DNA from: Desulfobotulus alkaliphilus
Lineage (GTDB): Bacteria; Desulfobacterota; Desulfobacteria; Desulfobacterales; ASO4-4
Direction: 5' to 3'
Assembly: GCF_007830435.1 (NCBI RefSeq)
Contig: NZ_VLLC01000004.1
Span: 1 to 64,000, forward strand
DNA length: 64,000 nucleotides
Positions 59,516-61,778 of the stretch are shown here, one piece after another; the first letter of the stretch is position 1; every line of letters starts with the position of its first letter. Under the pieces are notes generated by a model. The model ran no database searches. It saw only the letters and a program-made list of their open reading frames with translations, and was not told the DNA's origin. Made by a program: the position numbers and the translations under genes.

Positions 59516-60151
59516 TCAAGCGCATCCTTTCATCACGAGTTCCGGCAATCCGGCAAGGCTTGTGATCTGGACTTCTGCCCCCAGATCTTCAGGGCCATAG
59601 CCGATAAAATGGCAGCCTGCTGCCAAGGCCGATTGCGCATCCAGAGGTGAATCCCCGATATAGAGAAGGTTTTCCGGGTTTATGCCAAAGTGACCGATAA
59701 GTCTTTCCAGCATGTCGGGCCAGGGTTTGGCCCTGACCACATCCATGGATGTGATCAGCATGTCAAAATGCTTTGTGAGATCAAAGTGATCCAGAAGGGG
59801 GCGCAGGGTATTGGATCGGTTGGTGGCAACGGCGGTCTTAAAATCTGTCTGAAGGATTTTCAGCACCTTTCTCAGGTGCGGCTCTTCAATCATAAGGGGA
59901 AAAAGATCCGGGTAATGGAAGTTTTTCTGCTTTCCCCTGACCTTTTCCAGATCAACCCTGCCTTTAAAAAGATAGTCAATGGCTGCTGCGGCGGTATGCA
60001 TATGCACATAATGGAAGTCCTTTTCATCCATGGGCGGCAGGTCAAAATATTTGAGCAGGGTATTGTAATAGGTCTGGTTGGCTCTGGTGGAGTCAAACAT
60101 CACACCGTCGCAGTCAAAAGCAACAAGCCGGATATTTTTAAAAATCTGCAT
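59516..60151 (-). CDS. HAD-superfamily phosphatase (phosphoglycolate phosphatase-like)
   Basis: 211 residues. Motif I VAFDCDGVMFDST (nucleophile and acid Asp), motif II VATNRSN, Lys in VVRAKPWPDML, motif IV YIGDSPLDAQSALAAG. An alpha-helical C1 cap sits between motifs I and II. Members dephosphorylate small phosphoesters; the Asp-Cys-Asp-Gly-Val start is common. Substrate unknown. 60152-60334, upstream, holds no gene. Confidence 0.9.
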   Translation of the reverse strand: MQIFKNIRLVAFDCDGVMFDSTRANQTYYNTLLKYFDLPPMDEKDFHYVHMHTAAAAIDYLFKGRVDLEKVRGKQKNFHYPDLFPLMIEEPHLRKVLKILQTDFKTAVATNRSNTLRPLLDHFDLTKHFDMLITSMDVVRAKPWPDMLERLIGHFGINPENLLYIGDSPLDAQSALAAGCHFIGYGPEDLGAEVQITSLAGLPELVMKGCA

Positions 60152-60334
60152 AACACGTCCTTTTTTGATGCCTTACCCGACTCCGCCACACCTGAGCGGG
60201 AGACTTTGATGCAGGCAGGCCAAATGCTGTATTTACGAAAGTTTTTCACGGCTCTGTCTGCAAGAATCCCTTTAGCGGTTCCCACAGCCAGACGCAAATC
60301 CTGCCCCTTATCTTGGCAGGGTTCAGTGGCGCTT

Positions 60335-61024
60335 TTATTCCGGAGGCCGGATATCCCCAAGTACCCGTATACGGATGTCTTTTCTTACGGGACTTTCAAT
60401 ATCAAGGATCAGGGTATCATAGTAGCGCCCTGCCTTTTTGGTTATATTGGAAACGGAGATAAGATAGCTGCCGTTTTCATCGGGTTCTGAGAGGCTGAAA
60501 TCGAAATCCCCCCCCCTTGTGGCACGGATATCTTTAACCATAAAAGGATATTCGGGGTCGGGCTTCAGAACAATCTCCTGCTCAATGGTCTCTCCGGCAA
60601 TCCCATACAGGGTTATGATGGCAGGTTCCACCATGGCAAAGGGTTTGATGAATCCTCTGATTTCAAACCGGATCTCCGGGCTGTTGGCTGCATTGCTGCT
60701 TAGGGCTATGGTCTGAACCAGGGTTCGCCCTGCATAGCCTGCGGTATTGACCTTTACATCCAGATGTCCCTCGCCGCCGGGAGGGATGCGCCCCGTAAAG
60801 GAGGTCGCAGAGCAGCCTCAGCCGGGATTCACCCTCAGGATGCGCAGCTCACTGTCTCCGGTATTGTGCAGAGTGAAGCGATGGGTGAGAATGCTGCCTT
60901 CGGGCAGGGTGTCAAAGGTGTATACCCTCTCTGGAGCATGGAGGAACGGTTTTGCCCAGAGGGGCAAGGCAGTCAGACAGACCAACATAAAAATATAAAA
61001 AAAAGGTACGGGTTTCATCGACAT
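60335..61024 (-). CDS. DUF1573-family exported protein with an in-frame UGA at a conserved Cys: candidate selenoprotein
   Basis: One continuous frame of 229 codons interrupted only by TGA at 60818-60820 (codon 69). Before it: signal peptide (PFFYIFMLVCLTALPLWA) and the DUF1573 Ig-like strand pattern FDTLPEGSILTHRFTLHNTG and LRILRVNPG. After it: GCSATSFTGRIPPGGEGHLD, VKVNTAGYAGRTLVQTIALS and a second Ig-like domain to the C-terminus. DUF1573 proteins have a conserved Cys-Gly-Cys exactly here, so UGA replaces the first Cys (PG-U-GCS). A bulged hairpin at 60787-60809 could be the SECIS. If UGA is read as stop, the product is a 68-residue fragment; a TGC-to-TGA nonsense mutation is the alternative. 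Confidence 0.7.
60787..60809 (-). promoter_or_regulatory. Possible bacterial SECIS element
   Basis: Eight nt after the UGA, UGCG pairs with CGCA and, after a two-base AC bulge, CUCC pairs with GGGG around the loop UUUAC. The apical loop is 19-23 nt from the UGA, inside the range known for bacterial SECIS. Bacterial loops usually carry a G at the first or second position, which this one lacks; a further stem (UCCCUC/GAGGGA) lies at 60767-60786. Tentative. Confidence 0.35.
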
Positions 61025-61131
61025 AGGGCTTCCAATTTATTTATTTAATATAATTACTGGTACTCACAAAAAGTCAAAAACGACAGTAATTATTCAGAAC
61101 GGTTTATTCCGAACTGTCAATGCTGTAGTTG

Positions 61132-61432
61132 CAGCAGCTTCGTACTGTTGTAAGGCACTTTGGCTATTTGCAAGTGACATTGCAATCGTTTCGGATCAGA
61201 GCTTTGCAGGCCTGTGCGAAAGAAGCGGCAAACTGTCTGAGCCGCCACAAAGGCAGCGTACCAAGGCCTGCTATGGTAATCAAAAAGCTTATCCTGCCTG
61301 TGGCGGGGAGTTTTTGCCGCTTCCGTACAGGCCAAGAAGCTCCCGAATAAGATTGCGTCACGGGCAAATAGCCTGGGGCCTGTGCATCTGTCTTTGAGGT
61401 TTGGTACTTGGAAAACTGTGATGAACAGTTAC
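61132..61432. repeat. 301-bp dispersed repeat, copy B
   Basis: Same length as and about 94% identical to copy A at 27162-27462. 5' of the shared start, both have GTAATTATTCAG, but here 36 extra bp separate it from CAGCTTCG. An IS630 remnant begins at its 3' end. The rest of 61025-61778 outside this and the remnant shows nothing recognisable. Confidence 0.8.
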
Positions 61433-61435
61433 AAA

Positions 61436-61640
61436 CGACAGGAAAGCTCCGCTTATTCTTCCTGGCTCCATACTCCACCATTTGAATCCGGATGAAATGC
61501 TATGGGGATACCTGGAACAGCTGCCTTTACAGAGAATACGGATCTTGATTTTTAATGTACATATTTTCTACAATGACAGAAGAAGAAGTTTTCAATATTT
61601 CCAGAACCCGCTAATCAATAAGACTCAGAGCGGCCATCTG
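61436..61640 (+). pseudogene. IS630-family transposase remnant, C-terminal part
   Basis: Plus-strand reading LFFLAPYS in one frame continues as HLNPDEMLWGYL in another, the hallmark end of the IS630 DDE domain (Pro-x-Tyr-Ser-Pro-x-Leu-Asn-Pro-Asp-Glu), broken by a frameshift. No start or catalytic Asp residues remain. The downstream limit is approximate. Confidence 0.65.
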
Positions 61641-61778
61641 TAACAACAGTCAAAACTTTCTTTTCGTTTTTTTAAAACAAAGCCCTTTGTAACCGCTGGT
61701 CTTTTTGTATTCTGTCCCTGCCCTGCCGGAGGCAGTACGGGTGACGAGGTAACGACACATTTTAATAAGGAGTTTGCC

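Follow-up and report, generated by a model that had tools for sequence, protein, structure and literature searches.

The DUF1573 family (Pfam PF07610) has been tabled among the selenoproteins since at least 2008 in the literature consulted. The OS_HP2 family, assigned to pfam07610 and given with the motif UxC, was entered in the selenoprotein table of PMC2398784 (2008), and a DUF1573 selenoprotein with the motif UGC is found in entries of PMC9312934 and PMC13188914, each with a citation of Zhang and Gladyshev 2007. No function for the DUF1573 family was found in literature searches or in the text passages on DUF1573. The gene considered here lies in a stretch of 64,000 nucleotides of Desulfobotulus alkaliphilus (contig NZ_VLLC01000004.1, positions 1 to 64,000), referred to below as the window. 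An earlier note had put it forward as a new selenoprotein, a novelty that did not hold: the family is the one modelled as NCBIfam NF041425, 'OS_HP2 family (seleno)protein', and tabled in entries of PMC2398784, PMC9312934 and PMC13188914. Because the OS_HP2/DUF1573 selenoproteins had been described before, the gene is treated as a well-supported new member and not as a discovery.

The read-through protein scores 102.7 bits against the NF041425 cut-off of 100 (residues 31-126), and the U-x-C motif is also present (U69-G70-C71). Domain, U-G-C motif and a score above the curated cut-off are thus shared with OS_HP2, and there is no essential difference from that family, though the cut-off is exceeded by only 2.7 bits. 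Two residues before Sec, the window protein has Pro, whereas Thr is the commoner family residue (Thr in 50 and Pro in 14 of 79). Cys forms of DUF1573 (CGC) have the domain and the aligned position in common with the window protein (15 places), but carry Cys for Sec, preceded by Ser, Asp, Asn or Thr in 12 of the 15. Beyond the literature consulted, the present analysis adds the order-wide distribution of the gene, its conserved synteny, a covariation test of the hairpin after the UGA, and a sister group with a CUG motif.

The gene, its in-frame TGA and its relatives

The coordinates of the gene and of the features discussed below are collected in Table 1. On re-reading, the minus-strand frame proved to be broken by one TGA, as the earlier note had it; this single internal stop falls between Pro-Gly and Gly-Cys-Ser. 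Pfam DUF1573 matches the read-through protein over residues 32-124 (E 2.3e-15; 56.9 bits against a gathering cut-off of 26.1), and the match runs across the TGA, which upholds the claim that both halves belong to the same protein. It is the one DUF1573 match in the genome. The N-terminus has a hydrophobic stretch that looks signal-peptide-like by eye, and export, also claimed before, is probable. A standard-code list of open reading frames of at least 90 codons contains just the last 99 codons of the gene.

Table 1. Features of the locus, in window coordinates; plus signs count nucleotides after the UGA.
Feature	Position	Strand	Basis
OS_HP2/DUF1573 selenoprotein gene (very probable), 229 codons + TAA	60335..61024	minus	Frame, Pfam, NCBIfam, predicted fold
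TGA in frame, codon 69, very probably read as selenocysteine	60818..60820	minus	Frame; aligned codons in relatives
Putative Sec69-Gly70-Cys71 (UGC) motif	60812..60820	minus	No variation in 79 aligned Sec proteins (without L047)
SECIS-like hairpin, +9..+31, bulged A at +13	60787..60809	minus	Fold; covariation, 77 sequences
Apical loop CUUUAC, +18..+23	60795-60800	minus	Predicted fold
HAD-family hydrolase, directly downstream, conserved neighbour	59516..60151	minus	Pfam HAD_2, E 1.8e-26

Relatives were compared at the codon aligned to codon 69, where the earlier note had advised looking for Cys or UGA. In 95 distinct places, with the DNA checked, this codon is TGA in 80, TGC in 11 and TGT in 4, with no other codon; since the loci are the best-scoring matches of searches in the order and the phylum, plus one further locus (L047), and no random sample, the proportion with Sec does not estimate that of the population. 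The 95 places were obtained from 124 tblastn pieces after dropping those without residues 66-74 and repeated contexts. All 15 homologues without TGA have Cys, in agreement with the proposal that Sec takes the place of the first Cys of a conserved Cys-Gly-Cys. The preceding residue is Gly in 75 of the 80 TGA places; before the 15 Cys it is Ser (6), Asp (3), Gly (2), Asn (2), Thr (1) or Cys (1).

The gene is nearly order-wide. At E 1e-6 or better, a match was found in 258 of the 291 genomes of the window's order, and among the 150 matches listed, 136 have one TGA, two have a TGA and a TAA, and 12 have no stop, in a hand count that takes TGA anywhere in the matched gene. The phylum search at E 1e-8 gave matches in 106 of 297 genomes, the lower-scoring ones often stop-free, and TGA at codon 69 also occurs outside the order (e.g. 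L118, L120, L124, L131, L135, L136, L138). A search of genome contigs for relatives returned 47 pattern stretches and one relative (L047), and a search of viral contigs returned none. In a quick tree, with 41 of its 104 inner branches left open, 10 switches between Sec and Cys are needed, and the well-supported branches alone force seven (CGC label). Sec and Cys copies of DUF1573 adjoin in one genome stretch (L076 and L094, the latter the same place as L115).

Complete Sec machinery is present in the genome. A search suggested in the earlier note recovered all four components, each over its curated cut-off: selA (626.5 bits), selB (372.2), selD (383.1) and tRNA-Sec (selC; 75.4), the last with anticodon TCA. 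Among 14 control genomes, the same cut-offs were exceeded by selA in one, selB in two, selD in two and tRNA-Sec in five. The genome's own selD match (L109, G000:C17:66531-67451) itself carries an in-frame TGA; Sec-containing SelD is a known form.

Comparison with two congeners gives a dN/dS of 0.32 and 0.42 for the part after the UGA and of 0.16 and 0.19 for the part before it; between the two congeners the value is 0.35 for either part, and dS against the more distant one is high (1.3-1.7). By this measure, the codons downstream of the UGA are under purifying selection, with weaker constraint than upstream. These results bear on the reading of codon 69 as a nonsense mutation, a pseudogene or a sequencing error. 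A stop inside an otherwise intact gene, together with a hairpin that is not significant in the lone sequence, would agree with such damage, but TGA stands in 80 of 95 places, selection continues downstream and the Sec machinery is complete. This explanation was rejected on recurrence, selection and machinery, and is considered extremely improbable.

The hairpin downstream of the UGA

In bacterial SECIS elements, the apical loop lies 16-37 nt after the UGA, and the consensus has a G within the first two loop bases. A hairpin in SECIS position, with its loop at 19-23 nt, had been described in the earlier note. Its position stands, as the predicted loop lies within this range (Table 1), but the expected loop G is missing from the window. 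This G is present in 27 of 77 family sequences and is taken as a preference, not a requirement, because the other 50 are without it too. The predicted pairs are U9-A31, G10-C30, C11-G29 and G12-C28, then, beyond the bulged A13, CCUC with GGGG. No Rfam family matched 60000-61500, even at E values up to 5.

Taken alone, the fold of 61 nt is no better than that of dinucleotide shuffles (z -0.03), and the 45 nt after the UGA fold weakly better than synonymous recodings in the window (z -1.02). The significance comes from comparison, since TGA recurs at the same codon in relatives. The recoding test was applied to 57 places picked by residue pattern, leaving out the pattern-less L085, L088, L094, L096 and L103; the 51 Sec places have a mean z of -1.01 (45 negative), and the six Cys places -0.58 (three negative).

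Covariation was assessed in 77 Sec sequences, aligned without gaps, over the helix +11..+17 / +24..+30, leaving out three of the 80 TGA sequences (two with an inserted codon, one CUG-type). In the null, codons were exchanged at random between sequences that share a residue at a column, so that proteins are unchanged and shared ancestry is retained. Paired cells amount to 76.6%, against 69.3 +/- 0.8% in the null, and changes on both sides number 71, against 31 +/- 11; neither value was reached in any of 1000 shuffles. The number of pair types is not above the null (17 vs 17.5, reached by 888 of 1000). At +14/+27, for example, the pairs are CG (33), TA (33), TG (9) and other (2). Helix registers slid by 1-3 give 32-42% paired cells, and the 15 Cys homologues 46.7%. 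The window forms the upper four family pairs only, its lower pairs being shifted by the bulged A. Hairpin pairing thus covaries beyond what the protein code accounts for.

The same comparison bears on the possibility that UGA stands for another residue, through a code change to Trp or Gly, or is passed by general read-through. A frame that is open when read through would fit, but all 15 homologues without TGA have Cys and none has Trp or Gly, tRNA-Sec and SelB are present, and the hairpin pairs are better kept in Sec than in Cys genes. The code-change reading was rejected on the Cys codons, tRNA-Sec, SelB and the hairpin, and its probability is put close to nil. Four lines of evidence agree, namely the recurrence of TGA, the Sec machinery, selection after the UGA and the RNA hairpin, and on these genomic grounds it appears nearly certain that selenocysteine is inserted at the in-frame UGA. 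A nearly order-wide gene, present in the standard-code list with its last 99 codons only, is in this way supported by comparison as encoding a full-length secreted selenoprotein.

Predicted fold, sister subfamily and putative role of the motif

The protein is predicted to have a signal-peptide-like N-terminus followed by two Ig-like domains of PapD/ASH type. The AlphaFold model has two beta-sandwich domains (mean pLDDT 78.3, pTM 0.50; five models, 51.9-78.3) and was built on two sequences, so its domain fold alone is used. In it, residues 68-70 connect strand 60-67 with strand 71-75. The first domain superposes on VesB (4lk4) with a VIA-align Z of 12.2 and an rmsd of 1.8 A over 96 residues, and the likeness to ASH/PapD-like Ig domains (VesB and VesC Ig domains, HYDIN, pilus chaperones) is one of fold and concerns this domain only. 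The predicted fold is Ig-like and not thioredoxin-like. A phmmer search against PDB sequences gave nothing at E 0.1. Across 79 aligned Sec proteins, L047 excluded, six residues do not vary (U69, G70, C71, N54, G56 and L60), and H48 is conserved in 77; apart from the two motif positions (69, 71), there is no column where as many as 25 of the 79 rows carry Cys.

A sister subfamily places Cys differently. In L047 (3133-3135, plus strand), the Gly-Sec-Gly-Cys of the window is replaced by Cys-Sec-Gly-Ala. With L047 as query, a search of 395 genomes from the phylum yielded 23 match rows, spread over 21 genomes: PCUG with A or V next in 11, TUGV in one (L151, minus strand) and Cys forms in the other 11, the 12 Sec rows all belonging to family code f102. 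PCUG[AV] members are L047, L140-L149 and L161. The two sister Sec members scored against NF041425 fall under its cut-off (L047 54.8 and L142 76.6 bits). A MurJ-like gene, named by eye, is next downstream in 11 of the 12 neighbourhoods examined by clustering. The stretch after the UGA has a negative z against synonymous recoding at 11 of 13 sister-family sites (mean -1.18, by hand), hand-picked from 18 sites, the other five lying outside the DUF1573 gene. The CUG rows need two changes in the quick tree, and a single origin may still apply. In the PCUG members the partner Cys thus stands at -1, not at +2 as in the UGC family, with Sec unchanged in place; L151 (TUGV) is the exception to this pattern, with no Cys in its translated frame. 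Vicinal Cys-Sec in DUF1573 was not found in literature searches, including the passages covered of PMC13188914, PMC12013277 and PMC1794560; within its entries, PMC13188914 gives a CU motif for a different family, DUF466.

For the window protein, the explanation we favour, and consider fairly probable as a whole, is that of an exported, Sec-decoded OS_HP2 selenoprotein with an Ig fold and a Sec69-Cys71 redox exchange. UGA at codon 69 would be decoded by SelA, SelB, SelD and tRNA-Sec, assisted by the hairpin about 9 nt downstream. The product would be exported to the periplasm and fold as two Ig/PapD-like domains, with Sec69-Gly-Cys71 in an inter-strand loop of the first. There, Sec69 would act as attacking nucleophile and Cys71 as resolving thiol, and a reversible Sec69-Cys71 selenenylsulfide would exchange electrons with a periplasmic thiol/disulfide or peroxide substrate. 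The patterns at the motif point to redox: at codon 69 Sec interchanges with Cys only (95 places), with 10 switches needed in the quick tree, no third Cys column is conserved, and Cys71 is kept in 79 of 79 UGC-type rows, whereas 12 sister-group members have this Cys at -1 instead. L151, with Sec in T-U-G-V, speaks against a redox pair, and because of it the resolving Cys is not regarded as obligatory in the wider family. A redox role of Sec69-Cys71 is judged rather likely.

CxC-type pairs bind soft metals, and the exposed UGC loop could instead hold a soft ion such as Cu(I) or Hg(II), or similar, the protein serving as a periplasmic chaperone or scavenger of metal or metalloid. A third ligand might be His48, which 77 of the 79 proteins retain. 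Among the selenoproteins entered in PMC13188914 is a Cu/Zn efflux transporter of the SO_0444 family, with the motif UxC, and a B. thetaiotaomicron DUF1573 gene is in an iron-dependent stimulon list of PMC10434189. However, there is no further conserved Cys column, the sole column with Met in at least 25 rows (34 of 79) is near the N-terminus, no metal-resistance gene recurs among neighbour clusters (named by eye), and Cys at -1 in the sister group means another ligand geometry. Metal binding, the main rival to the redox reading, is held to be unlikely. Returning to redox, a test of the motif for such activity is made worthwhile by its conservation and by the sister subfamily, in which Cys and Sec are vicinal. 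More tentatively, and with some doubt, DUF1573 might be a non-thioredoxin redox scaffold with an Ig fold, in which Sec is the fixed nucleophile and the resolving Cys stands on either side (UGC; CUG in the sister group). If so, the UGC form, which is present in nearly the whole of the window's order, would count there as a core selenoenzyme of the periplasm.

Gene neighbourhood

With one DUF1573 place taken per stretch and the window included, at least 52 of 61 stretches have a HAD hydrolase gene no more than 1.5 kb downstream on the same strand, and at least 30 of the 61 have a PriA-like gene (named by eye) upstream; both counts are lower bounds because some stretches are cut by contig ends. 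In the window, the HAD gene is followed further on by polA, and a search for priA upstream of the gene within the window gave no match. The nine stretches without HAD include Cys copies (L063, L070, L087) as well as Sec copies, while the Cys copies L099 and L106 do have the HAD neighbour. This synteny looks like a housekeeping arrangement that marks a stable locus; as a clue to function it was rejected, both neighbours being housekeeping-like and giving no redox partner. The roughly 750 bases upstream of the gene (61025-61778) hold no recognised gene, with one 105-codon open reading frame lacking a Pfam match, and an inverted repeat seen there by eye (gaagcggcaaa / tttgccgcttc) is perhaps the remnant of a mobile element.
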